Assembly: GCA_022823625.1 (NCBI GenBank)
Contig: JAJEHQ010000023.1
Coordinates: 62,001-126,000, forward strand
Direction of reading: 5' to 3'
Length of the DNA: 64,000 nt
DNA from: Gammaproteobacteria bacterium
GTDB taxonomy: Bacteria; Pseudomonadota; Gammaproteobacteria; Arenicellales; JAJDZL01
This document shows, one piece after another, positions 11,674 through 30,344 of this stretch. Below the pieces are notes generated by a model that ran no database searches, was not told where the DNA came from, and was given only the letters and a program-made list of their open reading frames with translations. Made by a program: the position numbers and the translations under genes. Positions within the stretch are counted from its first letter, which is position 1. Each line of letters begins with the position of its first letter.

Positions 11674-12705
11674 ATGCATACGATCCTGAAGTTTGCAATT
11701 GCGTTCGTAAGCGCACTGTTTATTTCACAAGCCGCCTATGCGGCCGGTCAACTCAATGTCTACAATTGGGGTGATTACATCAATCCAGAAGTTCTGACTC
11801 GCTTTTCTGAAGAGACAGGTATTAAAGTTTCGCTTGATACCTACGGGACCAACGAAGAAATGCTGGCCAAAATTCAGTCGGGTGCGACTGGATACGACAT
11901 CGTATTTCCGTCCGTACATATGCGCGACATCATGCAGAAGCTGGGGCTTCTACACGATGCCAAGGTCAACACACTGAAAGGTTTTGAAAATATCGATCCG
12001 GCCAATATGATTTCTAAAGTTGATCCGGAAAGTTCCTTCTGCCTGCCCTATGCATGGGGTGCTGTTGGAATTTTCTTCAACAAGGAGGAAGCAGGTGAAC
12101 TCAAAACTTGGGACGATTTTTTTGCGTTGCCTGACAAGGGCAAAAAAATTACCATGCTGGATGATTTGAGGGAAACCATTGGCGTAGCTCTCATCAAGAA
12201 TGGCCATTCAGTCAATTCAACCGATAGCGACGCACTCAAACAAGCCGAAGCCTGGTTGTTGGAACGCAAAGATAAAATTTCCGCATTCAGTTATGACATT
12301 GTGTCACTGGTTCAGGCGGGGGATATCGCCGCGGCTCATTGGTATGTAGGTGCGACACTGTACACGCTGGAAGAACCGGACAAGTTGGGTTTTGTAATTC
12401 CGGAAGAAGGTGCCACTATGTATCAGGAAGATATCTGCGTTCTCAAAGATGCACCAAACAAGGACAGCGCAATCAAATTCTTTGAGTTTTATATGCAGCC
12501 TGAAATTGCCGCACTCAATACATTGCAGCAGGTTAACGGTACCGCTAATGCTCCGGCAAGAGATTTGCTACCGCCAGAACTGAAAGCGAATCCGAATACG
12601 AATCCGCCGCCTGAAGTGGTTGCCAAGCTGCAGATTTTCGAAGATTTAGGCAATGATCTTCGAAAGTACAATCGAGTCTGGACAAAGGTTCGTACAGCGC
12701 AGTAA
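11674..12705 (+). CDS. Polyamine-type ABC transporter substrate-binding protein (PotD/PotF-like)
   Basis: A 343-residue periplasmic binding protein of the spermidine/putrescine class. It has a signal peptide ending AYAAG (near residue 24) and then the hallmark LNVYNWGDYINPEVL at the mature N-terminus. The typical YDIVFPSVHMRD and FVIPEEGATMYQED segments follow. A strong ribosome site, GGAGGAG, precedes the ATG. It is the first gene of an eight-gene operon and, unlike the other five binding-protein genes in the window, has no hairpin after it: the ATPase starts 15 bases later. Given the downstream enzymes, the ligand may be an amide or peptide conjugate of an amine rather than a free polyamine (inference). 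Confidence 0.87.
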   Translation: MHTILKFAIAFVSALFISQAAYAAGQLNVYNWGDYINPEVLTRFSEETGIKVSLDTYGTNEEMLAKIQSGATGYDIVFPSVHMRDIMQKLGLLHDAKVNTLKGFENIDPANMISKVDPESSFCLPYAWGAVGIFFNKEEAGELKTWDDFFALPDKGKKITMLDDLRETIGVALIKNGHSVNSTDSDALKQAEAWLLERKDKISAFSYDIVSLVQAGDIAAAHWYVGATLYTLEEPDKLGFVIPEEGATMYQEDICVLKDAPNKDSAIKFFEFYMQPEIAALNTLQQVNGTANAPARDLLPPELKANPNTNPPPEVVAKLQIFEDLGNDLRKYNRVWTKVRTAQ

Positions 12706-12720
12706 CGGAGACGGAGTTGA

Positions 12721-13815
12721 ATGGACTCCATCGCCGAGGTCAGAGAAGCTGTCAAACGCTTTCCGGCACCCGAAGGCGGTGTCATTACGGCGCTTGACGA
12801 TATTTCGCTAAATATTCAGCAGGGTCAGTTCATGACCCTGCTGGGTCCATCTGGCTGTGGCAAAACGACGCTACTGAGAGCGATCAGCGGCTTCGAGGAC
12901 CTTGATTCGGGAGAGGTGCGAATCGCTGGCGAATCAGTCGCGGGTGTACCACCTTATCGACGTCCTGTCAATACTGTTTTTCAGAACTATGCGCTGTTTC
13001 CTCACTTATCTGTAAGCGGCAATGTAGGTTATGGATTGGATCTGGCCCGTGTGTCAAAAACTGAACGTGAACAACGAGTTGGCGAGGCACTGGAAAGGGT
13101 AAACCTGTCAGGGTTTGATCGACGCAAGCCAGCGCAGCTCTCAGGAGGGCAGCAACAGCGCGTAGCCCTGGCAAGGGCAATCATCAACCAACCAAAGCTT
13201 CTGCTGCTGGACGAACCGCTTTCAGCATTGGATCGCAATTTACGCCAGTCCATGCAGCTCGAACTGAAAAGTCTGCAGCATGATCTAGGCATCTGCTTCC
13301 TGTTCGTCACACATGATCAGGAAGAAGCGCTGACGATGTCAGATCAGGTCGTTGTTCTGGACCACGGTAGAATTGAGCAGATCGGGCCGCCGGAGGAACT
13401 TTATCACCAGCCTGCAACTCGTTTTGTTGCGGGATTTATAGGCGACGGTACACTCTTTTCGGGAACGATCGAAAATGGGGCTGAAGATCCAATCCTTGTA
13501 ACAGAAGATGGCTTGCGTATTTCAGTTGGCATCGGACCATCAGTCGGCACTAAGGCGACGCTCATCATCCGCCCGGAGCACCTGAATATCGCCCCTCAGG
13601 AACCCGACAATTCCTTGGGAATTTTAGACGCTGTGCTGGAGCAATCCGTCTTTCAGGGTGCAACTCGCCAGTATGTCTGTAAACTGGCTAACGGCACTTC
13701 CATTTCAGTTTCGGTAGCAGGATCGGGAGACGAAGCACTAAGCAACGTTAACCCAGGTGATCCCATTCGCCTCGCATACCGCCGGAATACACCTCACCTG
13801 ATACTCGAGTCCTGA
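12721..13815 (+). CDS. Polyamine-type ABC transporter ATP-binding protein (PotA-like)
   Basis: A 364-residue ATPase. The ABC domain shows Walker A GPSGCGKTT, the Q-loop VFQNYALFPHL, signature LSGGQQQRVALARA and Walker B LLLLDEPLSALD. A C-terminal TOBE domain (about residues 285-360) is typical of PotA/MalK-type ATPases. It powers uptake through the two permeases that follow. The start lies 15 bases after the binding-protein stop and the permease gene starts 2 bases after its own stop. Confidence 0.9.
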   Translation: MDSIAEVREAVKRFPAPEGGVITALDDISLNIQQGQFMTLLGPSGCGKTTLLRAISGFEDLDSGEVRIAGESVAGVPPYRRPVNTVFQNYALFPHLSVSGNVGYGLDLARVSKTEREQRVGEALERVNLSGFDRRKPAQLSGGQQQRVALARAIINQPKLLLLDEPLSALDRNLRQSMQLELKSLQHDLGICFLFVTHDQEEALTMSDQVVVLDHGRIEQIGPPEELYHQPATRFVAGFIGDGTLFSGTIENGAEDPILVTEDGLRISVGIGPSVGTKATLIIRPEHLNIAPQEPDNSLGILDAVLEQSVFQGATRQYVCKLANGTSISVSVAGSGDEALSNVNPGDPIRLAYRRNTPHLILES

Positions 13816-13817
13816 AC

Positions 13818-14702
13818 ATGGCTACCAAACGGGATCTTCGTAGCCTCAGTACTCTGTTGACGCCGTCAACTCTGTTCCTCGGAATATTCTTTCTGGGTCC
13901 GCTCGCTGTCATGATCATTTTCAGCTTTCTGGAGCCCGGCGTTTATGGCGGAGTCGTCTGGAATTTTTATCACTGGAATTACGGTCGAATACTTGGCTGG
14001 GCTGACGGGGAGTGGGAAGACTTTGATCCTGTCTACATTGACATTTTCTTAAGGTCTGTACGTCTTGCATTGACCAACGTAGGCATTACACTGCTTGTAT
14101 GTTATCCGGCAGCACTCTGGGTCAGTGGGCTGTCAGCGAGATGGCGGACTTTTGTTGTCTTCATAATTACACTGCCATTTTTCGTAAGTCTGGTCGTGCG
14201 CCTGTTCTGCTGGGTGCTAATATTGCGGCCGAGCGGATTCCTGAGCACCTCACTAATGGGTCTTGGCATCATCTCAGAACCCATTGACATCATTTACACA
14301 GAAACCGCGGTATTGATTGGAATGGCCTATATCTTGCTGCCATTCATGTTTTTGCCGCTTTATGCTAGCATCGAAAAACTCGATCATTCACTGCTGGAGG
14401 CCTCTGCTGATTTAGGCGCAAATCCATTTCAGACTTTCTGGCGAGTCATTCTGCCTTGTACACTTCCCGGGATTGCAGCCGGAGCGGTACTGGTGTTTAT
14501 CCCTAGTCTTGGCAACTTCATTGTTCCAGATCTGCTCGGTGGAGCGAAAGTGATGATGATCGGAAATCTGATTGAGCAGCAGTTTCTGTCAGCGCGTAAC
14601 TGGCCCTTTGGTTCGGCGCTTTCTGTCATGATCATGTTGGTCATGTTCATGTTGATTGTGTTTTATCTCAGGCGCATCGGTCGTTCGGAGATTGTCAGAT
14701 GA
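13818..14702 (+). CDS. Polyamine-type ABC transporter permease (PotB-like)
   Basis: A 294-residue inner-membrane permease with six main hydrophobic segments. The ATPase-docking EAA loop reads EASADLGANPFQTFWRVILP, as in PotB/PotH proteins. An N-terminal periplasmic loop with YGRILGWADGEWEDFDP is also usual for this class. Its stop overlaps the start of the next permease gene by 4 bases (ATGA), so the two subunits are translationally coupled and probably form a heterodimer. Confidence 0.88.
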   Translation: MATKRDLRSLSTLLTPSTLFLGIFFLGPLAVMIIFSFLEPGVYGGVVWNFYHWNYGRILGWADGEWEDFDPVYIDIFLRSVRLALTNVGITLLVCYPAALWVSGLSARWRTFVVFIITLPFFVSLVVRLFCWVLILRPSGFLSTSLMGLGIISEPIDIIYTETAVLIGMAYILLPFMFLPLYASIEKLDHSLLEASADLGANPFQTFWRVILPCTLPGIAAGAVLVFIPSLGNFIVPDLLGGAKVMMIGNLIEQQFLSARNWPFGSALSVMIMLVMFMLIVFYLRRIGRSEIVR

Positions 14703-15520
14703 AACACCCGTGGCTCAAACGTTTACTGTCCCTGCACGGTCTTCTGTTTCTGGCCTTTGTCTACGCGCCGATCATTATTGTGGTTGTTTACTCTTTCAAC
14801 AGCCATCCGGTCAACATGATGGTGTGGAAGGACTTTACCTTCGACTGGTACCTGTCAATTTTTGGCAATCCTACAAAACTCACTGAACAGACTCTTTACG
14901 TCGAATCTACAGATCAACTTCTGTCAGCGGTCAAAAACAGCCTGACTGTTGCCGTAACGACGACCACATTTGCCACCATCGTTGGAACTGCCACAGCACT
15001 TGCGATTTATCGATATCACTTCAAGCTTAAGCCTTTCTACCAAGGTCTGCTGTATATGCCGATGGTCATGCCTGACATCGTGTTGGGTATTGCATTGCTG
15101 GTGTTCTTCATCAACTTTGGTGTAAAGCTTGGATTGATGTCGATCATCATCGGTCACTGTACATTTTTGATTTCTTATGTTTTTGTTGTCGTCAGTGCCC
15201 GACTGGCAGGTATGGATAGCACACTGGAGGAAGCCTCAGCAGATCTGGGAGCCAATCCTTGGGCTACATTTCGGCGCGTAACCTTGCCGCAAATTCTGCC
15301 GGGTATTGTGGGCGGAGCGCTGTTAGCCTTCATCATTTCAATGGATGATCTGGTAATTACCTATTTCATTGCTGGAGTTGACTCAACAACGCTTCCGGTA
15401 TTTATCTACGGCATGCTACGGCGCGGTGTAAAACCGGAAATCAATGCAATAGCTACACTCATGCTGCTTTTTTCCTTTGCAATAGCTGCACTGGGGCTTT
15501 ACTTTAGAAGACGAAATTAA
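14699..15520 (+). CDS. Polyamine-type ABC transporter permease (PotC-like)
   Basis: A 273-residue permease with six hydrophobic segments and the EAA loop EEASADLGANPWATFRRVTLP. It starts with a short cytoplasmic leader and the first helix LLFLAFVYAPIIIVVVYSF, as in PotC/PotI. It completes the importer with the PotB-like subunit. The next gene, an S58 peptidase, begins 29 bases downstream, so the transporter and the enzymes that follow very likely share one transcript. Confidence 0.88.
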   Translation: MKHPWLKRLLSLHGLLFLAFVYAPIIIVVVYSFNSHPVNMMVWKDFTFDWYLSIFGNPTKLTEQTLYVESTDQLLSAVKNSLTVAVTTTTFATIVGTATALAIYRYHFKLKPFYQGLLYMPMVMPDIVLGIALLVFFINFGVKLGLMSIIIGHCTFLISYVFVVVSARLAGMDSTLEEASADLGANPWATFRRVTLPQILPGIVGGALLAFIISMDDLVITYFIAGVDSTTLPVFIYGMLRRGVKPEINAIATLMLLFSFAIAALGLYFRRRN

Positions 15521-15549
15521 TCAAACACCAACCACTGACGTACTGAACG

Positions 15550-16632
15550 ATGAAAAGACGAGGACGAGAACTTGGGCTGCCTTTCCCAGGTCGAACCGGA
15601 GAGCACAATGCCATTACGGATGTTCCAGGTGTGGAAGTTGGATTTTGCACCCGAATTGAAGGGAATGGACCGCTGGTTCAGGGAGAGGGTCCCATAAGAA
15701 CGGGTGTAACCGCAATTCTGCCCCTTGGACGAATTTCCGAACCTCAGCCGGTGTGGGCCGGTATGTATGCACTGAACGGTAACGGTGAAATGACTGGTAC
15801 GCACTGGATTCGGGATGGCGGTTACTTTGTTGGCCCAATCTGTATCACCAACACTCACAGTGTTGGCATTGTTCACCATGCGGCGGTGAGGTGGATGATT
15901 CGAAACTATGAGGAAGCGTGGCAATCGGAACACCTTTGGTCGATGCCCGTGGTAGCGGAAACATACGACGGCGTGTTGAATGACATTAATGGACAGCATC
16001 TCACAGAAGATGACGCGCTTAAAGCACTGAATAATGCGAAACCAGGACCTGTGGATGAGGGTAACGTTGGCGGTGGAACCGGAATGATCTGCTATGAGTT
16101 TAAGGGTGGTACCGGCACTTCTTCACGATGTTTGGAAGTTGACGGTGAAGAGTTTGTAATTGGCGCACTGGTTCAAGCCAATCATGGCGTGCGACCCTGG
16201 CTTACGGTTTTAGGCAGACAGGTCGGGAAATCCATGACGGAAGATCGATTGATGGATGAGGAACACGGATCGATCATCGTGATGCTCGGTACTAACTTAC
16301 CGATGGCTCCACATCAATTACAGCGATTGGCGAAGCGAGCTGCGATTGGTATTGGCCGTGGCGGTACGCCCGGTGGTAACAACTCAGGTGATATCTTTCT
16401 TGCTTTCAGTTCTGCCAATCGAGGACCGATACCACAACTGGCGTCTGGCAGACGGCAATTGGAAGTCATTAACGATGAATTGTTTGATCCAATTTATATG
16501 GCGGCAACCGAATCGATTGAAGAGTCCATCATCAATGCGATTCTGGCGGCCGAAGACATGTCGACCTTACGTCCTCCGGGACTAACGTGTCGTGCAATTG
16601 ATCACGAACGGCTACTTGAGTTTTTCCAATAG
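15550..16632 (+). CDS. P1/S58-family peptidase (DmpA/BapA-like aminopeptidase)
   Basis: A 360-residue member of the self-cleaving DmpA/BapA family, which removes N-terminal D-, L- or beta-amino acids from short peptides and amides. The N-terminus ITDVPGVEVG and the segments GGYFVGPICITNTHSVG and VDEGNVGGGTGM are family hallmarks. The likely autoproteolysis site and nucleophile is Asn278-Ser279 in GGNNSGDIF. No signal peptide is visible, so it acts in the cytoplasm on material brought in by the importer just upstream. The next gene, an aminotransferase, starts 11 bases downstream. The family call is strong; the substrate is unknown. Confidence 0.88.
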   Translation: MKRRGRELGLPFPGRTGEHNAITDVPGVEVGFCTRIEGNGPLVQGEGPIRTGVTAILPLGRISEPQPVWAGMYALNGNGEMTGTHWIRDGGYFVGPICITNTHSVGIVHHAAVRWMIRNYEEAWQSEHLWSMPVVAETYDGVLNDINGQHLTEDDALKALNNAKPGPVDEGNVGGGTGMICYEFKGGTGTSSRCLEVDGEEFVIGALVQANHGVRPWLTVLGRQVGKSMTEDRLMDEEHGSIIVMLGTNLPMAPHQLQRLAKRAAIGIGRGGTPGGNNSGDIFLAFSSANRGPIPQLASGRRQLEVINDELFDPIYMAATESIEESIINAILAAEDMSTLRPPGLTCRAIDHERLLEFFQ

Positions 16633-16643
16633 AGAAGAAAAAA

Positions 16644-18023
16644 ATGAATTTTGATTTCAATGCAGATTCCGCTTCGTGGGAAGCAAGGGACCTCAAATCG
16701 GTATTACACGGGTTCACTCACCTTGGAACCCTTCACGAGAAGGGTCCGTCCGTCATGGCACGCGGGGAGGGGATTTACGTCATCGATTCTCACGGCAAGC
16801 GCTATCTAGAAGCCAACTCAGGTCTATGGAACATGGTTCTAGGATTTGATCATCCGTCTCTGATAGAAGCGGCCTGTGACCAATACAGAAAATTTCCAAC
16901 CTATCATGCATTTTTCGGACGAATTTCTGAGCCAGCCATAGCACTTTCGGAAAAATTGATTGAAATCGCCCCTGTACCAATGAGTAAGGCGTTTTTCACG
17001 AATTCCGGATCCGAAGCAAACGATACAGCAGTGAAAATGCTGTGGATGATTCACCGCGGTCTAGGTAATCCACAGCGTCGCAAGATTATTTCAAGAGTCA
17101 ACGCTTATCACGGTGTCACTGGAATCACGGCGAGCATGACTGGCAAGGACTATGTCGGAGCTTTTGGACTTCCGCTTGATGACTTTCTGTTTACTGATTG
17201 TCCCCACCATTGGCGGTTTGCAAATGATGATGAAAGCGAACTCGAATTTTCAGGCCGTTGTGTTGAAAATCTGGACGCACTGATTGAAGCGGAGAGACCT
17301 GACACCATTGCCGGTTTTATTGCAGAACCCGTCATGGGAGCAGGTGGAGTCATTCCACCTCCCAAAGGGTATTTTGAAGCCATTCAGAATGTACTCAGAA
17401 AACACGATATTCCGTTGATCGTGGATGAAGTGATTTGCGGGTTCGGGCGCACTGGGCGTGTCTGGGGCTGTCAGACCTACAACATTGAACCTGACATCCT
17501 GATCGCGTCAAAGTGCATCACTGCAGGTTACTTTCCGATGGGCGCGATCATGATTTCGGAGTCAATTGCCGACAAGCTCAATCAGGCTAGTGAAGCTTAC
17601 GAAGAATTTCCGCACGGGTTTACAACAGCAGGTCACCCGGTCGGTTGTTCGATTGCCCTGAAAGCGATTGAAATTATTCTGGAACAGGGTGTACTGGATA
17701 ACGTTGTGGATGTTGCGCCTCATTTTCTGCATAGGTTGGAAGAATTTGCTTCCCATCTGCATATTGGTGAGGCACGCGGAGTCGGGTTGATGGGTGCTCT
17801 GGAGTTGGTAAAGGACAAGCAGTTGAAATCACCTTTTCCGCCTGAACAGCCCGTTGCAGAACAGATTGCTAATGTTGCTTCGGACAATGGTTTGATTTGC
17901 CGACCGGTTGGACAGTCCATTGTTGTTGCACCGCCTTTTGTCATCACACGGGATCAAATTGACGAGCTATTCAACAAGCTCCAATTCACCATCGATCAGG
18001 TTTTTGATTCTGTGGAGGATTGA
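16644..18023 (+). CDS. Class III (omega-amino acid type) aminotransferase
   Basis: A 459-residue PLP-dependent class III aminotransferase, moving an amino group between an amine or beta/omega-amino acid and an alpha-keto acid. Visible marks are the cofactor-binding NSGSEANDTAVK, the SRVNAYHGVTG segment, the aspartate in PLIVDEVICGFGRTG and the Schiff-base Lys290 in ASKCITAGYFPMGA. Length fits the family (430-470). It lies between the S58 peptidase and the DMFase-like genes, suggesting that it deaminates the amine or amino acid released by hydrolysis. Polyamine and beta-alanine aminotransferases belong to this class, so the fit with the importer is reasonable but unproven. Confidence 0.88.
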   Translation: MNFDFNADSASWEARDLKSVLHGFTHLGTLHEKGPSVMARGEGIYVIDSHGKRYLEANSGLWNMVLGFDHPSLIEAACDQYRKFPTYHAFFGRISEPAIALSEKLIEIAPVPMSKAFFTNSGSEANDTAVKMLWMIHRGLGNPQRRKIISRVNAYHGVTGITASMTGKDYVGAFGLPLDDFLFTDCPHHWRFANDDESELEFSGRCVENLDALIEAERPDTIAGFIAEPVMGAGGVIPPPKGYFEAIQNVLRKHDIPLIVDEVICGFGRTGRVWGCQTYNIEPDILIASKCITAGYFPMGAIMISESIADKLNQASEAYEEFPHGFTTAGHPVGCSIALKAIEIILEQGVLDNVVDVAPHFLHRLEEFASHLHIGEARGVGLMGALELVKDKQLKSPFPPEQPVAEQIANVASDNGLICRPVGQSIVVAPPFVITRDQIDELFNKLQFTIDQVFDSVED

Positions 18024-18026
18024 TTG

Positions 18027-18344
18027 ATGTCAAGATATCGATTGTCTGATGAGGATCTCAAGTACGCAGCAGAATTCAAGGCAGATCCACTCGGTACACC
18101 GAGTCCCGGACTGCAAAGAGTCCTGAATCTCCTGCGCGGTGGACCGAAAAAGGGGAAATACGTTCTGATTGTCAAGGAACCTTTCCGTCGCTGGAATCTG
18201 GGACGCATGCCAGAGTCGCGCGGCGAGCCCATAGAAATTATCAGCGAAGTCGAGTACACCGATCTTGCCGAAGCTGAGTGGGACGTTTTCAAACGCAGGT
18301 GGAAAGCGAGTACGGGTCAGGATCTCGATCAGGAGTTGGCATGA
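18027..18344 (+). CDS. N,N-dimethylformamidase small (alpha) subunit-like protein
   Basis: A 105-residue protein that aligns by eye with the C-terminal three quarters of the DMFase alpha subunit (DmfA1, about 130 residues). Shared elements in order are a DP-G-PSPGLQRV segment, a basic GKY with hydrophobic residues, an arginine-rich turn, and a final acidic helix ending in RRW-x-D-x-ELA. In known enzymes this subunit packs on the catalytic large subunit. The ATG at 18027 is 3 bases after the aminotransferase stop, with GGAGGA upstream. Its stop overlaps the large-subunit start by 4 bases. Homology is inferred from a remembered alignment and from context. Confidence 0.65.
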   Translation: MSRYRLSDEDLKYAAEFKADPLGTPSPGLQRVLNLLRGGPKKGKYVLIVKEPFRRWNLGRMPESRGEPIEIISEVEYTDLAEAEWDVFKRRWKASTGQDLDQELA

Positions 18345-20572
18345 CTCGCATCCTGGCTTACACCGATCAGATCAGTTCTGCACCGGGTGGGTCAATTCAG
18401 GTTAAGGTGAGTTGTGATGGTCTGGACCAATACGATGCCAGACTGATTCGAGTCATTCAAGGTGATGTCAACCCGTCAGGTCCGGGTTATCGAGAAGAAG
18501 TCGTTGACCTCGATCTTGGCGGCCCAAATCCAGCTCGGTTTCAACCCATCCATGCAGGGTCCTATGGCATCGCCGAAAGTGCGCCACCGCTAGATATGGG
18601 CAAGTCATTTAGCATGCAAGCGCTAATTTGGCCAACTTTGCCGGGTCGCGGTCCACAAACGATCTTGAGCTACGAGGATCCGAATTCGAGTGCAGCATTC
18701 AGACTCTACCTGGACGCTGCAGGTGCGCTCGCTTTTCAAGTGACCGAATCGCAAGGCGATAGCGATAGCATTTCAACAGGATCACCGCTCTTCGGCCAGC
18801 GATGGTATCTGGCAAGTGGAGAATATGACGTTGTCTCACGAACGCTGACGGTTATTCAAGTGCCGCTGATTTCTACCCCGCAGGCACAAGACAGACTCAA
18901 AGATTCGAAAGTCGTCACTATAGGTACAGCTAAAGCGGGGCCTGATGGAGTCATCATGATCGCTGCCCACAGCGGGTCTGAACGTCCAGCAGTTGGGCAC
19001 TTCAATGGTCGCATTGAAGCACCAAAACTCTTTGCGCGATTGTTGGATGAGCACGAAAAAGTGAATCCTGACACTGCAAAATCTCAAGATCTGATTGCCG
19101 CGTGGGATTTTTCTGTTGGCATATCAACAGACACGATTATTGATGTTTCAGACAATCAGCTAAACGGACGCTTGGTTAACCTTCCCGCCCGTGGAGTCAC
19201 CGGTTACTTGTGGAATGGTGATGAACACTGCTGGAAGAATAATTTCGATCACTATGCGGCAATCCATTTTCATGATGACGATCTCTACGACTGTGAATGG
19301 GAAACCGATTTTGAAGTTAAACTGCCCGATAGTCTGAATAGTGGAGTTTATGCTGTTCATCTGCAAAGCGGGTCTGAGGTGTACTACACCCCTTTTGCAG
19401 TTCGCCCGCCACGCGGTAACCGATCTGCACCAGTCGCATTCATCCTGCCAACTGCTAGCTACATGGCTTATGCGAACAATCGAATTGGCATTGATGTACC
19501 AGAAACTGAAATTGTAACGGGACGCCTGGTCCAGATGAATCCGATCGATCTCTTTATGCAAACTCACCCCGAAATAGGGTTGTCTTTCTACGATGTGCAC
19601 AATGATGGCAGTGGCGTTTACTACTCATCACGTCTCAGACCCATTGTTCAAATGCAACCCAAGCAGATCGGACACTTGGGAGGTGTCGGTTCGAATCTGT
19701 GGCAATTTAACGCAGATACCCATATTTTGGCTTGGCTTGAGCAGCTCGAACAGCCGTTTGATGTTATCACAGACGAAGATCTAGAAAAAGAAGGTAGCCA
19801 GGTACTAGATGGCTATAGGGCGGTAATCACGGGTACCCACCCAGAGTATTACTCGGTAGGGATGCTGGACAGTCTTCAGTCGTACCTTAATGCTGGCGGT
19901 CGTCTGATGTATCTTGGCGGTAACGGTTTTTACTGGAGGGTGAGTTTTCATCCGACGCTTCCAGGAGTTATTGAGTGTAGAAAATCAGAAGACGGCATTC
20001 GCGTGTATCCGCCTCCACCTGGTGAGTTTTATGCCAGTTTTACAGGCGAGTACACAGGACTTTGGCGCCGAAACGGTCGAGCACCGAATGAGTTGGTAGG
20101 CATCGGTATGGTTTCGCAGGGGTTTGATTGCTCGTCGCCATTCATTCTGACAGAAGCCAGCCGCGACGCGCGAGTTTCTTTTATTTTTGACGGAGTCGAA
20201 GGCCCAGTTGTCGGCGATTACGGCTTGTCCGGTGGCGGTGCAGCTGGTCTGGAGCTAGATGCAACAAACCATGCGTGGGGTACACCACCCAATACACTGG
20301 TACTGGCAACCTCAAAGCGCCATTCAGATCTCTATTTGATGACACCTGAAGACATGGATGACCCGGCCCCGGGTTTAGGCGGGACAGAGGCGGAGATTAT
20401 TCGAGCGGAGATGGTGTTTTTCGAGACCCCTAAAGGCGGTGCTGTATTTTCGACCGGCTCCATTGCCTGGTGTGGCAGTCTTTCTCACATCAACTACAGT
20501 AACGATGTTGCACGAATAACAGGCAATGTGCTAAAGCGTTTTCTTGACCCAACCCCTTTTCCAGTCATGTAA
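18341..20572 (+). CDS. N,N-dimethylformamidase large (beta) subunit-like protein
   Basis: 743 residues, close to the DMFase beta subunit (about 760). An N-terminal beta-rich part contains a LamG/ConA-like domain (about residues 75-260, with FSMQALIWPTLPG). The C-terminal half has a class I glutamine-amidotransferase-like fold. Tyr377 (SYMAYAN), Tyr417 (SFYDVHN) and Glu502 (THPEYYS) lie in the order, and at roughly the spacing, I recall for the two-Tyr/one-Glu iron site of the Paracoccus enzyme; this mapping is inference. The known enzyme splits dimethylformamide to dimethylamine and formate. I chose ATG at 18341 because it overlaps the alpha stop as ATGA and has AGGAG upstream. The true substrate may be another amide. 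Confidence 0.75.
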   Translation: MTRILAYTDQISSAPGGSIQVKVSCDGLDQYDARLIRVIQGDVNPSGPGYREEVVDLDLGGPNPARFQPIHAGSYGIAESAPPLDMGKSFSMQALIWPTLPGRGPQTILSYEDPNSSAAFRLYLDAAGALAFQVTESQGDSDSISTGSPLFGQRWYLASGEYDVVSRTLTVIQVPLISTPQAQDRLKDSKVVTIGTAKAGPDGVIMIAAHSGSERPAVGHFNGRIEAPKLFARLLDEHEKVNPDTAKSQDLIAAWDFSVGISTDTIIDVSDNQLNGRLVNLPARGVTGYLWNGDEHCWKNNFDHYAAIHFHDDDLYDCEWETDFEVKLPDSLNSGVYAVHLQSGSEVYYTPFAVRPPRGNRSAPVAFILPTASYMAYANNRIGIDVPETEIVTGRLVQMNPIDLFMQTHPEIGLSFYDVHNDGSGVYYSSRLRPIVQMQPKQIGHLGGVGSNLWQFNADTHILAWLEQLEQPFDVITDEDLEKEGSQVLDGYRAVITGTHPEYYSVGMLDSLQSYLNAGGRLMYLGGNGFYWRVSFHPTLPGVIECRKSEDGIRVYPPPPGEFYASFTGEYTGLWRRNGRAPNELVGIGMVSQGFDCSSPFILTEASRDARVSFIFDGVEGPVVGDYGLSGGGAAGLELDATNHAWGTPPNTLVLATSKRHSDLYLMTPEDMDDPAPGLGGTEAEIIRAEMVFFETPKGGAVFSTGSIAWCGSLSHINYSNDVARITGNVLKRFLDPTPFPVM

Positions 20573-22394: not shown

Positions 22395-23982
<1,588 letters not shown>

Positions 23983-23990
23983 CAGAATCG

Positions 23991-24827
23991 ATGGAAGTAG
24001 TTAGTGAACACCGATCGTTTGGCGGTGTCCAGGGCATTTATCGACATGAGTCGCAATGCACCGGTACACCCATGCAGTTTTCGGTCTATTTGCCACCGGC
24101 AGCTTCCGATTCACAATGTTCGGTCTTGTGGTTTCTGTCTGGGCTGACTTGTACAGAAGAGAACTTTACCGTCAAGGCTGGCGCTCAACAGTTTGCATCT
24201 CGCCAAAACCTGATTGTAGTCGCACCGGATACCAGTCCCCGCGGCGCAGGCATCTCAGGAGAGGACGACACCTACGACTTTGGTACCGGTGCTGGATTCT
24301 ATGTTGACGCGACGGAATCGCCCTGGTCACGCAACTACCAGATGTACACCTACATTACCCGTGAGCTGCAAGATCTGGTCATTTCAAATTTTCCCGCCAA
24401 CCCTTCCCGGCAGGGCATAACGGGGCATTCCATGGGTGGGCATGGAGCGTTGACAATTGGCCTTAAGAACCCGAACCTGTTTCACTCAATATCTGCGTTT
24501 GCACCGATCTGTGCCCCAACCCAATGCCCGTGGGGTCAAAAGGCATTGAGCGGATATTTGGGACAGAATCAGACTCTGTGGTCTGACTATGATGCGACCG
24601 AACTGGTTAAACGCGGATTTAGGAGCCAAACCATTCTGGTCGATCAAGGTGAGGCAGACGGCTTTCTGGAAGAGCAGTTGAAACCCGAAGTTCTTTCCGC
24701 GGCCTGTGAAGCAGCGGGCCAGTCCTTGCAGCTTCGCATGCAGCCAGGTTATGACCACAGCTACTATTTCATTTCGAGTTTTATTGAAGACCACATTGAG
24801 TTTCACGCGACGAAACTGAATGGATAG
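23991..24827 (+). CDS. fghA: S-formylglutathione hydrolase
   Basis: A 278-residue esterase-D family hydrolase that converts S-formylglutathione to formate and glutathione. The nucleophile elbow is GHSMGGHGAL (Ser near residue 147). The family segments LSGLTCTEENF, APDTSPRGAGI and the histidine in QPGYDHSYYFI are all present, and length matches (about 280). It starts 8 bases after the frmA stop, so the two form one operon for oxidising formaldehyde to formate. No transcription factor gene adjoins. Confidence 0.95.
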   Translation: MEVVSEHRSFGGVQGIYRHESQCTGTPMQFSVYLPPAASDSQCSVLWFLSGLTCTEENFTVKAGAQQFASRQNLIVVAPDTSPRGAGISGEDDTYDFGTGAGFYVDATESPWSRNYQMYTYITRELQDLVISNFPANPSRQGITGHSMGGHGALTIGLKNPNLFHSISAFAPICAPTQCPWGQKALSGYLGQNQTLWSDYDATELVKRGFRSQTILVDQGEADGFLEEQLKPEVLSAACEAAGQSLQLRMQPGYDHSYYFISSFIEDHIEFHATKLNG

Positions 24828-25058
24828 ATTTGGCATCAAGTTTTCGACCGATACAGCAGGTCGAACGCTCAATTGAAGCACCTAGCGGCTCAATTTCAGT
24901 CAATAAAACTTTTTCATTCAGAACAAATGGCAAAAAAGCTACAAATTTGTTCAAACATACTATAAAGTTAGTCTCTCAACGTTTGACATTTCAAACTTAA
25001 AATAAGTTCAACTAAATGCCATTTGGCACAAAAATTAAATTTCATTAAGGAGGTCCTG

Positions 25059-26012
25059 ATGAAGTTAGTAAAAAGAGTAATTGCAGCAAGCGCGGCTCTG
25101 TTCATGATGGTCGGAACTACGCAGGCAGCTGATGTTGTTATTGGTTCACCAAACTGGCCGTCCGTGCAAGCGACTGCCTACATTCTCAAAGTGGTTCTGG
25201 AAGAAAACCTGGGTCTTGAAGTTGAAGTCCAAAACGGTACGAATCCGGTTGTATTCGAAGCCATGGATAAAGGAAGCATGCATGTACATCCCGAAGTCTG
25301 GCTGCCGAACCAGGATAATCTGCACAACACCTATGTTAAAGACAAAGGCAGTGTGTTGATGAATCCGAATGGCGTTTCTGCCTTTCAGGGAATTTGCGTG
25401 ACCAAGCACACCGCAGACACTCTGGGTGTTAGCAAGATCACTGACCTGACTGACCCATCGATTGCTGCTCAGTTTGATTCAAACGGCGATGGCAAAGGTG
25501 AAGTCTGGATCGGGGCTACGGGTTGGGCCTCAACGAACGTAGAAAAAGTTCGCGCCAAGAGTTATGGCTATGCCGAAACTCTGGATCTCACCGAGATGGA
25601 CGAAACCCTCGCGCTCGCTAACCTTGATGCTGCAGTACAGCAGCAGAAACCTTTCGTGTTTTTCTGCTATACCCCGCATCATATGTTTGAGTTGCATGAC
25701 TTGGTGGTTCTGGAAGAGCCTGCACACGATCCTGCTAAATGGGTTGTGTTTCAGCCAACTGACGATCCAAACTGGTTGGAAAATTCAATGGCAGGCGTCG
25801 CGTGGAAAGATGCTAATCTGCACATCCACTATGCGAAGTCACTTGAAGAATCTCAGCCAGAAGCGGCAGCGATTCTGAGTAAAGTCAATCTGACGACCGA
25901 TCAGGTCAGTGCCATGGTATACGCCGTCATCGTGGACAAGGTCAAACTGGAAGATTTGGCTGCTTCTTGGGTTGAAGCGAATGCAGCATCTGTCGATGAG
26001 TGGCTGCGTTGA
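25059..26012 (+). CDS. Glycine betaine/proline-type ABC transporter substrate-binding protein (OpuAC/ProX-like), system 1
   Basis: A 317-residue periplasmic binding protein of the OpuAC/ProX class. After a signal peptide (cleavage near TQA-AD, about residue 25) it opens with VVIGSPNWPSVQATAYILK. It has several tryptophans suited to an aromatic cage for quaternary ammonium ligands (PNWPS, PEVWLPN, GATGWAS, AKWVVF). The ATG at 25059 is chosen because AAGGAGG lies 7 bases upstream. A strong terminator-like hairpin follows at 26079-26114, before the ATPase gene. The ligand is probably a betaine or related osmolyte; exact specificity is uncertain. Confidence 0.85.
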   Translation: MKLVKRVIAASAALFMMVGTTQAADVVIGSPNWPSVQATAYILKVVLEENLGLEVEVQNGTNPVVFEAMDKGSMHVHPEVWLPNQDNLHNTYVKDKGSVLMNPNGVSAFQGICVTKHTADTLGVSKITDLTDPSIAAQFDSNGDGKGEVWIGATGWASTNVEKVRAKSYGYAETLDLTEMDETLALANLDAAVQQQKPFVFFCYTPHHMFELHDLVVLEEPAHDPAKWVVFQPTDDPNWLENSMAGVAWKDANLHIHYAKSLEESQPEAAAILSKVNLTTDQVSAMVYAVIVDKVKLEDLAASWVEANAASVDEWLR

Positions 26013-26196: not shown

Positions 26197-27255
26197 ATGA
26201 ATGATAATGAAAAAGATATAGTTATAGAACTAAAGAACGCTTGGAAAATTTTCGGCGAACGCGCCTCAGAAGCAATGGCAGCAGTTGAATCAGAAGGCAT
26301 TGGCAAGGCTGAAGTTCTGGAACAGTATGGCGCGGTAGTGGGAATCGCAGATTGCAGTTTTTCTGTCCGACGAGGGGAGATTTTTTGCATTATGGGCCTA
26401 TCGGGCAGTGGCAAATCAACTCTGGTTCGCCACGTCAACCGGCTCATTGAACCGACTTCCGGGGAAATTTATCTGTTGGGTGAAGATGTAATGAAACTCT
26501 CACCAACAGCGCTGAGGGAAATGCGGGCCAAAAGAATTGGAATGGTGTTCCAGCACATGGCGTTGCTGCCTCATCGATCGGTTCGAGACAACGTAGCTTA
26601 TCCACTGGAAATTCGCGGCGAATCCAAATCCAGACGCTGGGATGTATCTCAACACTCACTGTCTCTGGTTGGTTTGGACGGTTTTGAAGATCGATTTCCG
26701 CGGGAGCTTTCCGGAGGTATGCAGCAGCGTGTTGGACTCGCCAGAGCGCTGGCGTCCGATCCGGATGTGCTGTTAATGGATGAGCCATTCAGCGCATTGG
26801 ATCCACTGATTCGCCGACAATTACAGGATCAGTTTATGGCCCTGTCGGACCAGTTGCACAAGACCACATTGTTTATTACGCACGATCTCGACGAGGCGAT
26901 TCGCCTGGGTACGAGAATCGCGATTATGAAAGACGGTCGAATCGTGCAAATCGGTACACCTGAGGAGATTGTCACCAATCCTGCTGACGATTATGTTCGA
27001 GACTTCGTACAGAATATCTCGAAACTGAAACTGGTATTTGCACACACGATTCAAACGCCAATCAGCGAATATAAACCAGTCGATGGTGAAGATTTGAGCC
27101 AGTCGCCACGAGTGTCTCAAGATGTTGACCTGGACTATCTGATCGACGTCGCCACGAACACCACTCAGCCGACCGTGACCACCGATGAAAGTGGAAATGA
27201 CGTCGGAGTTGTCTCCAAGGACCGGCTGTTGCAAGGAATCCGGGATGGCAAGTGA
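26197..27255 (+). CDS. Glycine betaine/proline-type ABC transporter ATP-binding protein (ProV-like), system 1
   Basis: A 352-residue ProV/OpuAA-type ATPase. Before Walker A it has the long leader typical of ProV (KNAWKIFGERASEAM with an insertion). Then come Walker A GLSGSGKST, Q-loop VFQHMALLPHRSV, signature ELSGGMQQRVGLARA and Walker B LLMDEPFSALD. The C-terminal 90 residues end in a weak CBS-like segment. It energises the two paralogous permeases encoded directly downstream; its stop overlaps the first permease start by one base. Confidence 0.9.
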   Translation: MNDNEKDIVIELKNAWKIFGERASEAMAAVESEGIGKAEVLEQYGAVVGIADCSFSVRRGEIFCIMGLSGSGKSTLVRHVNRLIEPTSGEIYLLGEDVMKLSPTALREMRAKRIGMVFQHMALLPHRSVRDNVAYPLEIRGESKSRRWDVSQHSLSLVGLDGFEDRFPRELSGGMQQRVGLARALASDPDVLLMDEPFSALDPLIRRQLQDQFMALSDQLHKTTLFITHDLDEAIRLGTRIAIMKDGRIVQIGTPEEIVTNPADDYVRDFVQNISKLKLVFAHTIQTPISEYKPVDGEDLSQSPRVSQDVDLDYLIDVATNTTQPTVTTDESGNDVGVVSKDRLLQGIRDGK

Positions 27256-28793
27256 TGGCAGAAAATTCTCAACCTGACGTAACAAAAGATATTCCAAAGA
27301 TTGACCTTAGCGATTCAATTCGCGAGTTTTCCGGTCAAAACAGCGACTACTACGTAGATACGCTGTCGCAAATTCAAGCGACTGGGGAGAATCTCAACCT
27401 CTGGAATAAAGCTGCACTGCTATGCGGTCCCGCCTGGTGTGCAGCCCGGGGGCTTTGGAACCTGTTCTGGTTATTCACAATAGCGGAACTCGTTGCACTG
27501 GTTCAACTCGGTAAAGGTATCTGGGGTGATTTAGGTGCCTCGAAAATGGCCGAAGCTGAGCAACTTACCAAACGGGCGCATGACCTGCGATTAGAAGCAG
27601 GTGTTGCAGGAGTCACGGGTGATGAAAGTGCGGAATCCTCTGCAGAAATCGCCATGAACCTGGAAAAAGCTGCCGAACTCGCAATTCAGCAGGCACAAGC
27701 CGCTGCCAGTACCTGGTGGCTCTACCTCATTGCAGGGATTGTGCTGTATGTCGTGTTGCGATATGTGCTTGGCAAATTTGCCAACCGCTTATACGAATTG
27801 CAATACTCTGCCTGGCGCTTGAACAAAAAGATTGCCAGTGGATTCAGTATGCAGCGATTAACGATCGCACTAGTCATTCTGGTAATTCTAGTACCGTTGA
27901 CACTCTACCGATTTACGGTGTCCAGCCCCGTTGAATGGCTTGTTGATGTTCCCGTTGATAATGCCTATTACACCAACAGCGCCAATGCGTTGGAAGGCTG
28001 GTTTGATCGCACTGCGGAAGCAGGCAAGGGCGTGTTCGATGGAATCACAGCAGGAGCTCAATCAGTGCTTGACGCGATGGAACTGCTGTTGGTTGATGCA
28101 CCATGGCCGGTTGTAGCAGTCTTTCTTGTGGTCATTGCATGGCGGGTCGCTAGTATCCGGGTCGCAATATTTACTGCAGCTTCCCTTTGCTACATAGGCT
28201 TTCTAGGACTATGGGAGGCCAGTATGGTAAGTATCGTGCTGGTTGGTGCAGCAGCGTTTTTCTGTATTCTGATTGGCATTCCATTGGGAATCTGGTTTTC
28301 ACGGAGTGAAAAAGCTTACGCTGTGGCACGCCCCGTTCTGGACCTTATGCAGACGATACCGCCATTTGTGTATCTCATTCCAATTATTGCATTCTTCGGA
28401 ACCGGACGGGTGCCTGGAATTCTGGCTACGATCATCTTTGCGATGCCACCGGTTATTCGGTTGACGGCATTGGGTCTGCGGCAGGTACCAAGCACCGTGG
28501 TTGAAGCCGCCGTTGCATTTGGTGCAACAAAATGGAGAATTCTGGTTGGCGTTGAATTGCCGCTTGCCACTCCCGCCATTATGACTGGCGTGAATCAGAC
28601 GATTCTGATGAGCTTGTCTATGGTGGTGATCGCATCACTGATTGGTGCGAAAGGCTTAGGTCAGGAAGTGTTGACTGCATTGCAGTACGTCGCTAAGGGC
28701 CAGGGCATTCTGGCAGGACTGGCCATTCTGTTTTGTGCAATGATGCTCGACCGCATCGTGCAGGGAAGATTTCAAAGACAGGAGGATCAGTAA
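27255..28793 (+). CDS. Betaine-type ABC transporter permease A (ProW-like) with extra N-terminal domain
   Basis: 512 residues, much longer than ProW (about 280-350). Residues about 1-90 form an extra domain with a GPAWCAARGLWNLFW segment like the FGPLW-x-R-x-W pattern of DUF2628-type membrane proteins. An Ala/Glu-rich helical stretch (about 95-150) and a further membrane helix follow. From about residue 200 the protein is a ProW permease, with EAAVAFGATKWRILVGVELP as the ATPase-docking loop. It begins with ATG overlapping the ATPase stop by one base. The next gene is a paralogue with the same architecture, suggesting a heterodimeric channel. The role of the extra domain is unknown. Confidence 0.83.
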   Translation: MAENSQPDVTKDIPKIDLSDSIREFSGQNSDYYVDTLSQIQATGENLNLWNKAALLCGPAWCAARGLWNLFWLFTIAELVALVQLGKGIWGDLGASKMAEAEQLTKRAHDLRLEAGVAGVTGDESAESSAEIAMNLEKAAELAIQQAQAAASTWWLYLIAGIVLYVVLRYVLGKFANRLYELQYSAWRLNKKIASGFSMQRLTIALVILVILVPLTLYRFTVSSPVEWLVDVPVDNAYYTNSANALEGWFDRTAEAGKGVFDGITAGAQSVLDAMELLLVDAPWPVVAVFLVVIAWRVASIRVAIFTAASLCYIGFLGLWEASMVSIVLVGAAAFFCILIGIPLGIWFSRSEKAYAVARPVLDLMQTIPPFVYLIPIIAFFGTGRVPGILATIIFAMPPVIRLTALGLRQVPSTVVEAAVAFGATKWRILVGVELPLATPAIMTGVNQTILMSLSMVVIASLIGAKGLGQEVLTALQYVAKGQGILAGLAILFCAMMLDRIVQGRFQRQEDQ

Positions 28794-30344
28794 ATGGCTG
28801 AGTCAATTGGTACAGTTGAGATCCTGGATGTCATCCCAGAGGTCGACATTTCAGATTCCGTAAAGGAATTTGCTGGCACAAACGGCAATTATTACACACG
28901 GGAATTCAAGAAAGTACAGTCGTCCAAGAGTGGATACTGCTGGACTTTCAATATTGGATCGGCTGTGTTCGGACCGCTATGGGCTACTGCACGTGGTTTG
29001 TGGGGCTTGTTCTGGGTGTTTTCGCTCCTGGAAATGGTCTTTCTGGTGATGCTAGGTTTGGGCGTGTGGGGCGAGTTAGGCGCTGACAAGTTTGCCCGGG
29101 CTGAGCGAATGCAAACCAACTACGAGAAAATGATGACACGGGCTGAAACAGCACGTGAGCAGGGAGATGAAGAAGGTGCGGCGTCGTTCGAGAAGCGCGC
29201 CGAAAATCTTGCCAAAGCCAGGGATAAAGCAACAGCAGAAGGTGAAATTGCCGCCGCGGGTGGTACACGTCTGCTGGTCATTGCGATTATCGGACTCGTT
29301 TTGATAAAGATATTCGAGGGCTGGATTGCAAATATTGCCTACGAGCGACAGTATTCCAGATGGCGTGGGGACCGAACTGTTCGGTCCGGATTGAGTTGGC
29401 CAATAGGATTGCTGGGGTTTGTAATCATTGCATTTGTTTACGTAGTTACTTTGTTGCGATTTACAACGGCTAATCCACCAGATGTGATTACCGAGTTTCC
29501 AATCGGGAATACCTACTATCTTGCAATCGCGTCCTGGATCGACTATTGGTTTGATCTGGCGTCGCAGAATTTTGCTTTCCTGTTTCAGGGTGTTTCACGT
29601 GGTATTCGGTTAATTCTGGATGGTGTTGAAACTTTGCTGGTTGGAACACCGTGGCCGGTTGTGATGGCAGTGATCATCATATTTGCCTATCGCAGTGCAG
29701 GCCCACGTGTCGCGGTATTTACTGCGGCCGCGTTGATCTACATTGCAGTTCTTGGATATTGGCAAAAAAGTATGGCGACAGTTGCACTGCTCGGTACTGC
29801 GTCGTTCCTTTGCGTTGCAATCGGAATTCCGTTAGGTGTCTGGTTCGCTCGAAGCCAACGGGCATTCAATATGGGGAGACCCGTTCTCGACCTGATGCAA
29901 ACATTACCATCGTTTGTTTACCTCATTCCAATTATTGCATTTTTTGGTACAGGTAAACCGCCGGGAATTCTTGCCTCGATGGTCTTCGGGCTGCCGCCGA
30001 TCATTCGCTTGACGACGCTTGGTTTGAGACAGGTACCCAAGGATGTTGTTGAAGCCGCGCGTGCATTTGGAGCGACCAATGCACAGATTCTGAGAAACGT
30101 TGAGATTCCTCTGGCGACACCGAGCATCATGGCTGGAGTCAATCAGACCATTTTGATGTGTCTGTCCATGGTGGTCATCGCAGCGTTGATTGATGCGAAG
30201 GGGCTGGGATATGATGTTCTGGTCGCCTTGCAATATGCGGCAAAAGGACAGGGCATACTGGCCGGAGTTGCCATTCTGTTCTGCGCTATCGTGATTGACC
30301 GTGTTATTCAGGGTAAATTCAAAGACACTGAAAAGGGCGGTTAA
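28794..30344 (+). CDS. Betaine-type ABC transporter permease B (ProW-like) with extra N-terminal domain
   Basis: A 516-residue paralogue of the preceding permease, with recognisable identity along its whole length. It opens with IPEVDISDSVKEFAG, matching IPKIDLSDSIREFSG in its neighbour. The DUF2628-like segment (VFGPLWATARGLWGLFW), a charged helical region (KFARAERMQTNYEKM and following) and a ProW core with EAARAFGATNAQILRNVEIP come next. It starts immediately after the stop of permease A. Tandem duplication followed by divergence is the simplest origin, and the two probably form the two halves of one channel. Confidence 0.83.
   Translation: MAESIGTVEILDVIPEVDISDSVKEFAGTNGNYYTREFKKVQSSKSGYCWTFNIGSAVFGPLWATARGLWGLFWVFSLLEMVFLVMLGLGVWGELGADKFARAERMQTNYEKMMTRAETAREQGDEEGAASFEKRAENLAKARDKATAEGEIAAAGGTRLLVIAIIGLVLIKIFEGWIANIAYERQYSRWRGDRTVRSGLSWPIGLLGFVIIAFVYVVTLLRFTTANPPDVITEFPIGNTYYLAIASWIDYWFDLASQNFAFLFQGVSRGIRLILDGVETLLVGTPWPVVMAVIIIFAYRSAGPRVAVFTAAALIYIAVLGYWQKSMATVALLGTASFLCVAIGIPLGVWFARSQRAFNMGRPVLDLMQTLPSFVYLIPIIAFFGTGKPPGILASMVFGLPPIIRLTTLGLRQVPKDVVEAARAFGATNAQILRNVEIPLATPSIMAGVNQTILMCLSMVVIAALIDAKGLGYDVLVALQYAAKGQGILAGVAILFCAIVIDRVIQGKFKDTEKGG

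Follow-up and report, generated by a model that had tools for sequence, protein, structure and literature searches.

A dimethylformamidase-family gene pair with a candidate Tyr2Glu metal site at the end of an operon with a polyamine-type importer, a peptidase and a transaminase in an Arenicellales bacterium

The dimethylformamidase (DMFase) DmfA1A2 of Paracoccus sp. DMF, for which structures have been solved (6LVB, 7W8J), is built of a small and a large subunit. Its iron is held by Tyr399, Tyr440, and Glu521 and has been demonstrated by X-ray fluorescence and EPR (PMC7686228). In the same enzyme, the adjacent large subunit contributes Phe693 to the lining of the substrate pocket, and the exclusion of large amides is attributed to this residue, while the N-terminal helix of the small subunit is wedged between two large subunits and its N-terminal residues contact domain II (PMC7686228). 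The Tyr-Tyr-Glu iron site had been described as unique. In P. aminophilus, the dmf pair is plasmid-borne and located behind a LuxR-type regulator, as read from the annotated plasmid record, and this organism carries a second, divergent DmfA1A2-like pair without a link to use of dimethylformamide (DMF) (PMC4543880). A further relative of solved structure is the N-acetyl-(R)-beta-phenylalanine acylase (8HUY, 8I59, 8I5A), whose PDB entries contain one chain type. Divergence of substrate on the DMFase scaffold is therefore already precedented, both by this acylase, which has the same metal-site residues, and by the second P. aminophilus pair. As an industrial chemical, DMF is of recent origin, which raises the question of what the DMFase family does in nature.

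Here, a gene pair of this family from a marine-type gammaproteobacterium was analysed within the window, the whole 64,000-nucleotide stretch of DNA. The small (alpha) subunit DmfS (18027..18344, 105 aa) and the large (beta) subunit DmfL (18341..20572, 743 aa) are encoded on the + strand in reading frames that overlap by 4 nt. A phmmer search matched residues 4-741 of DmfL to residues 6-760 of the solved Paracoccus large chain, 6LVB_A (E 5.7e-157, 527 bits), nearly equalled by the match to 8HUY (E 3.8e-151); the identities by alignment are 38.8% and 38.0%, respectively. The Pfam family PF20254 (DMFA2_C) was detected in DmfL at 302 bits against a curated cut-off of 27. The AlphaFold monomer of DmfL (mean pLDDT 91.6, pTM 0.92) displays the three-domain fold of the large subunit, matching 6LVB_A with a TM of 0.94 and 8HUY with 0.90, and structure comparison returned no other close full-length match. 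The reading of a DMFase-like pair, put forward in the earlier note, is borne out by homology to both Paracoccus chains and by the fold of DmfL. Chance resemblance is ruled out by the E-values, the fold, and the conservation of key residues in 97/97 relatives. DmfSL is a member of the DMFase superfamily and, at gene level, is of the heteromeric, two-subunit DMFase type.

For the small subunit, comparison of the single sequence with 6LVB_B was weak (E 0.016), while a profile of 58 DmfS relatives reached the same chain at E 1.1e-9 and a similar profile reached P. aminophilus DmfA1 at 8.8e-13. The predicted fold of DmfS, obtained in a run without three plasmid-record rows, has 6LVB_B as its best match (TM 0.70). 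Residue 7 of DmfS was aligned to residue 38 of the known alpha chain, placing its start about 30 residues later; the shortening that had been noticed before is thus retained, although its extent is about 30 residues and not the ~25 first given. In view of the contacts made by the N-terminal helix in the DMFase, DmfSL with its shorter N-terminus may be less tightly assembled than its counterpart. In locus L029 (9332-11902, - strand), a single frame of ~860 aa has matches to DmfS as well as to DmfL. This apparent natural fusion supports the view that the two subunits form one enzyme.

Residues Y377, Y417, and E502 of DmfL fall exactly on the iron ligands Y399, Y440, and E521 in the alignment with 6LVB_A, and the essential His and Asn of the DMFase are retained (H500=H519, N528=N547). 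The three residues had been proposed as counterparts of the ligands on the strength of their order and approximate spacing, 40 and 85 in comparison with 41 and 81 in the Paracoccus enzyme, and both the assignment and the spacings are confirmed. It can be observed that Y377, Y417, E502, and H500 are invariant in 97/97 distinct relatives of the large subunit; two mycobacterial sequences, L107 and L114, are the sole relatives among them with Asp at the position of DMFase Asn547. Such invariance makes these residues an expected marker of the family, so that their presence alone is no proof of novelty. The complete set of candidate ligands would, as far as sequence can indicate, support the same metal chemistry as in the DMFase, and the identity of the ligands together with the fold suggests that DmfSL is an iron-containing amidase. 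What is new at this locus is the conserved eight-gene operon and the clade-specific changes in the putative pocket; the ligand set itself is universal in the family.

In a maximum-likelihood tree of 99 rows, obtained by a quick search and with 8HUY and L036 as long branches, DmfL is located inside a clade of 30 rows with an SH-aLRT of 100. This clade includes Arenicellales and other Gammaproteobacteria, Rhizobiales, Rhodobacterales, Rhodospirillales, Burkholderia, and Pseudomonas. The true DMFases (6LVB, P. aminophilus, and one distant row) occupy a separate branch, and 8HUY is on a third branch, together with a second copy from the genome of the window. Locus L096, titled a Klebsiella pneumoniae MAG, falls among environmental proteobacterial rows in the tree and appears to be a contaminated or mislabelled bin; another DMFase-family locus, L116, is titled a Parachlamydia MAG.

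The members of the clade are characterized by residues of their own. The position of DMFase Phe693 is occupied by Asp674 in DmfL and by Asp in 30/30 clade members, while it is Phe in 6LVB and in P. aminophilus DmfA2, Ser in 8HUY, and mostly Val, Ile, His or Thr in the other sequences outside the clade. Q439, which corresponds to DMFase Arg462, is Gln in 30/30 clade members in contrast to Arg in 68/69 others, and R381, T389, and M590 are likewise fixed in the clade. Alignment would place D674 in the substrate pocket; the confidence of the monomer model is lowest in its loop (mean pLDDT 67), and the equivalent loop in the DMFase sits in the subunit interface. Together, the residue changes of the clade, including Phe to Asp and Arg to Gln, would give a wider and more acidic pocket.

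DmfS and DmfL are the final two of eight genes on the + strand that extend from 11674 to 20572 as an operon, separated by gaps of at most 29 nt or by 4-nt overlaps. The first four encode an ABC importer of the spermidine/putrescine type, composed of a PotD-like solute-binding protein (11674..12705), a PotA-like ATPase (12721..13815), a PotB-like permease (13818..14702), and a PotC-like permease (14699..15520). The two permeases were named from their positions, PotB having PotA on one side and PotC on the other, and from their similarity to the annotated ABC permease of L123. The PotD-like protein can be aligned with binders of putrescine and spermidine, and it has retained acidic positions in NWGDY, in LDDLRE, and at the E of TMYQED, which are presumably the polyamine contacts of the known binders. 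The next gene (15550..16632) encodes an aminopeptidase of family Peptidase_S58 (P1 family) that is closer to DmpA (1B65, 456 bits) than to BapA (270 bits); the motif GGNNSGD is present, including Ser279, which we take to be the nucleophile. It is followed by a class III aminotransferase (16644..18023) whose closest solved structures, at 608 bits, are amine:pyruvate transaminases that we assume to originate from Vibrio fluvialis and Paracoccus, and whose conserved Lys and Arg are presumably the expected PLP and pyruvate residues. Promoter and terminator scans gave no signal greater than in shuffled sequence. Just downstream of the operon, adjoining genes for a glutathione-dependent formaldehyde dehydrogenase and an S-formylglutathione hydrolase (22870-24827, + strand) could serve the demethylation of betaine-type compounds. 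Further on, two similar tandem permeases of glycine-betaine type (ProW-like, 513 and 516 aa; 27252-30344, + strand), each with a long N-terminal extension of ~250 aa ahead of the permease domain, have beside them an ABC ATPase at 26197-27255 and a binding protein at 25053-26012.

Conservation of this arrangement was followed in 80 related loci, with genome neighbours and annotated plasmid records, counting full-flank loci only; the thresholds of identity were chosen on members of the clade and the loci are relatives of one another, so that p-values for the association serve as a guide only. On that basis, a close homologue of the aminotransferase was present in 23/28 clade loci and 0/40 outside the clade, PotD in 20/28 and 0/40, the S58 peptidase in 19/28 and 0/40, and a GntR gene in 12/28 and 0/40, respectively. 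A close transaminase within the stretch was missing from 5/28 clade loci, and several are without S58 or Pot genes. The arrangements vary in order and strand, from Pot-S58-AT-S-L, through S-L divergent from Pot-S58-AT and AT followed by reversed S58, Pot, and S-L, to AT-S-L alone, a diversity which favours functional linkage rather than the inheritance of one block. Alphaproteobacterial loci add genes for glutamine-synthetase-like (GS-like), aldehyde dehydrogenase, N-formylglutamate-amidohydrolase-like, GntR, DadA, Alr, and Rid proteins. Pseudorhizobium flavum, Shinella lacus, and Rhodobacteraceae M382 carry various of the GS-like, aldehyde dehydrogenase, DadA, alanine racemase, Rid, and N-formylglutamate-amidohydrolase-like genes. 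Such a set fits a use of amines in which pyruvate accepts the amino group and the resulting alanine is recycled: alongside a transaminase that depends on pyruvate, DadA and alanine racemase would return alanine to pyruvate. No common clue to the substrate was found in three clade loci without the full module, where L072 has an amidase along with two aldehyde dehydrogenases, L045 a nitrilase-family gene along with an amino-acid permease, and L046 a solute-binding protein of family 5, the peptide type.

The same genome contains a second large subunit of the DMFase family (contig C18, 122352-124529, L001; L033:8344-10542), about 42% identical to 8HUY and a nearer relative of the acylase than DmfL. 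A small-subunit gene was not detected for this copy. It is followed by ABC transporter genes of the amino-acid type and by a further class III aminotransferase, and the locus is possibly one for N-acyl-beta-amino acids. As this second copy also has a transaminase for a neighbour, it may be a wider pattern that hydrolases of the DMFase family occur together with transaminases.

On the whole, we consider it fairly probable that DmfSL is a heteromeric metal amidohydrolase, the metal being most likely Fe3+ in a Tyr2Glu site, which works within an amine-catabolic operon on an N-acyl amide exceeding DMF in size and polarity. The context and the clade residues point to an amide of an amine as substrate. 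In the process envisaged, the PotDABC-type importer would take up an amine, probably cationic, in N-acylated or aminoacylated form. DmfSL would then strip the acyl group, with water attacking the metal-bound carbonyl and H500 as the catalytic His, while the DmpA-like peptidase would cleave off an aminoacyl residue at the N-terminus of these amides or of related ones. Subsequently, the transaminase, similar to that of V. fluvialis (Vf-ATA), would deaminate the released primary amine, a cationic or bulky one, with pyruvate. The metal, the reaction, the order of these steps and the cationic nature of the substrate are all inferred; weighing against the reading as a whole, specificity is broad in Pot-type importers as it is in class III transaminases. 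A more specific version, which we regard as tentative, is that the clade represents a distinct and widespread subfamily of Tyr2Glu iron hydrolases in which the Phe to Asp and Arg to Gln changes have reshaped the pocket to fit cationic amines in N-acylated form, for example N-acyl-polyamines.

Among other explanations, the main rival is that DmfSL hydrolyses gamma-glutamyl amides, closing a Spu/Puu-like gamma-glutamylation pathway in place of SpuA/PuuD, which we consider improbable. It builds on a resemblance in gene content: like the Pseudomonas spu/puu clusters, the operon combines a Pot-type ABC importer with a class III aminotransferase, and alphaproteobacterial loci add a GS-like gene and an aldehyde dehydrogenase, as in spuABCDEFGH (PMC10606097). 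The NCBIfam matches of the GS-like gene, gamma-glutamylputrescine synthetase among them, are below cut-off. A gamma-glutamylamine synthetase is present in some alphaproteobacterial loci but absent from the operon of the window, and the GS-like gene was counted in 7/28 loci. The hydrolase here is of the DMFase family rather than of the C26 amidotransferase type, of which the genome has its own separate member (208.7 bits), and the known relatives 6LVB and 8HUY work on formyl and acetyl amides. The operon also differs from these clusters in its additional DmpA-like peptidase and in its Vf-ATA-like transaminase (608 bits), which matches 6HX9, the structure that we take to be SpuC, at 323 bits. 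Slightly less probable again is an N-acyl-beta-amino-acid acylase like 8HUY, tied to a beta-peptide-active peptidase of DmpA type and to the transaminase. The acylase is about as close to DmfL as the DMFase is, the transaminase gene adjoins, and beta-alanyl peptides, carnosine among them, are substrates of DmpA enzymes (PMC9235088). However, the lineage of 8HUY is without a detectable small subunit, in contrast to the pair described here, and includes the other copy of the genome but not DmfL; the position of D674 is Ser in 8HUY, and the transaminase is of the amine:pyruvate type, distant from beta-alanine:pyruvate types.

The same amidohydrolase role with a metal other than iron, such as Zn2+, at the Tyr2Glu site is given a small chance: metal identity is not revealed by sequence, but the ligands and the nearby His and Asn are fully identical to those of an enzyme with iron shown by X-ray fluorescence and EPR (PMC7686228). 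A genuine dimethylformamidase, hydrolysing DMF or N-methylformamide for C1 and nitrogen use, is very improbable. It would share with DmfSL the two subunits, whole-length homology, fold, ligands, His, and Asn, and the formaldehyde dehydrogenase and S-formylglutathione hydrolase genes at 22870-24827 would suit it. However, identity to DmfA1A2 is 39%, the N-terminus of DmfS is shorter, pocket residue F693 is replaced by Asp and Arg462 by Gln439, and the 30-row clade is separate from the branch of the DMFases. The operon includes a polyamine-type importer, a peptidase, and a transaminase, for which dimethylamine, the product of DMF hydrolysis, is no substrate. The genome, searched family by family, yielded no DmmD-type (PF11927) gene and borderline DmmA-like matches, and the divergent P. 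aminophilus pair offers a precedent without a link to DMF. This reading was rejected on the pocket residue, the place in the tree, the operon, and the absence of a DmmD-type gene; the contention of the earlier note that genomic context argues against DMF is upheld by the operon. DMF is therefore an unlikely substrate of DmfSL.

With the amine-amide hydrolase preferred, this clade, in which an amine-catabolic operon is conserved and candidate specificity residues are shared throughout, becomes a concrete candidate for the natural job of the DMFase family. For the majority of the family, the common annotation 'N,N-dimethylformamidase' may be misleading. If the proposed remodelling for N-acylated cationic amines is true, the rare iron site would gain a natural role in the recycling of polyamine amides in marine and soil Proteobacteria.
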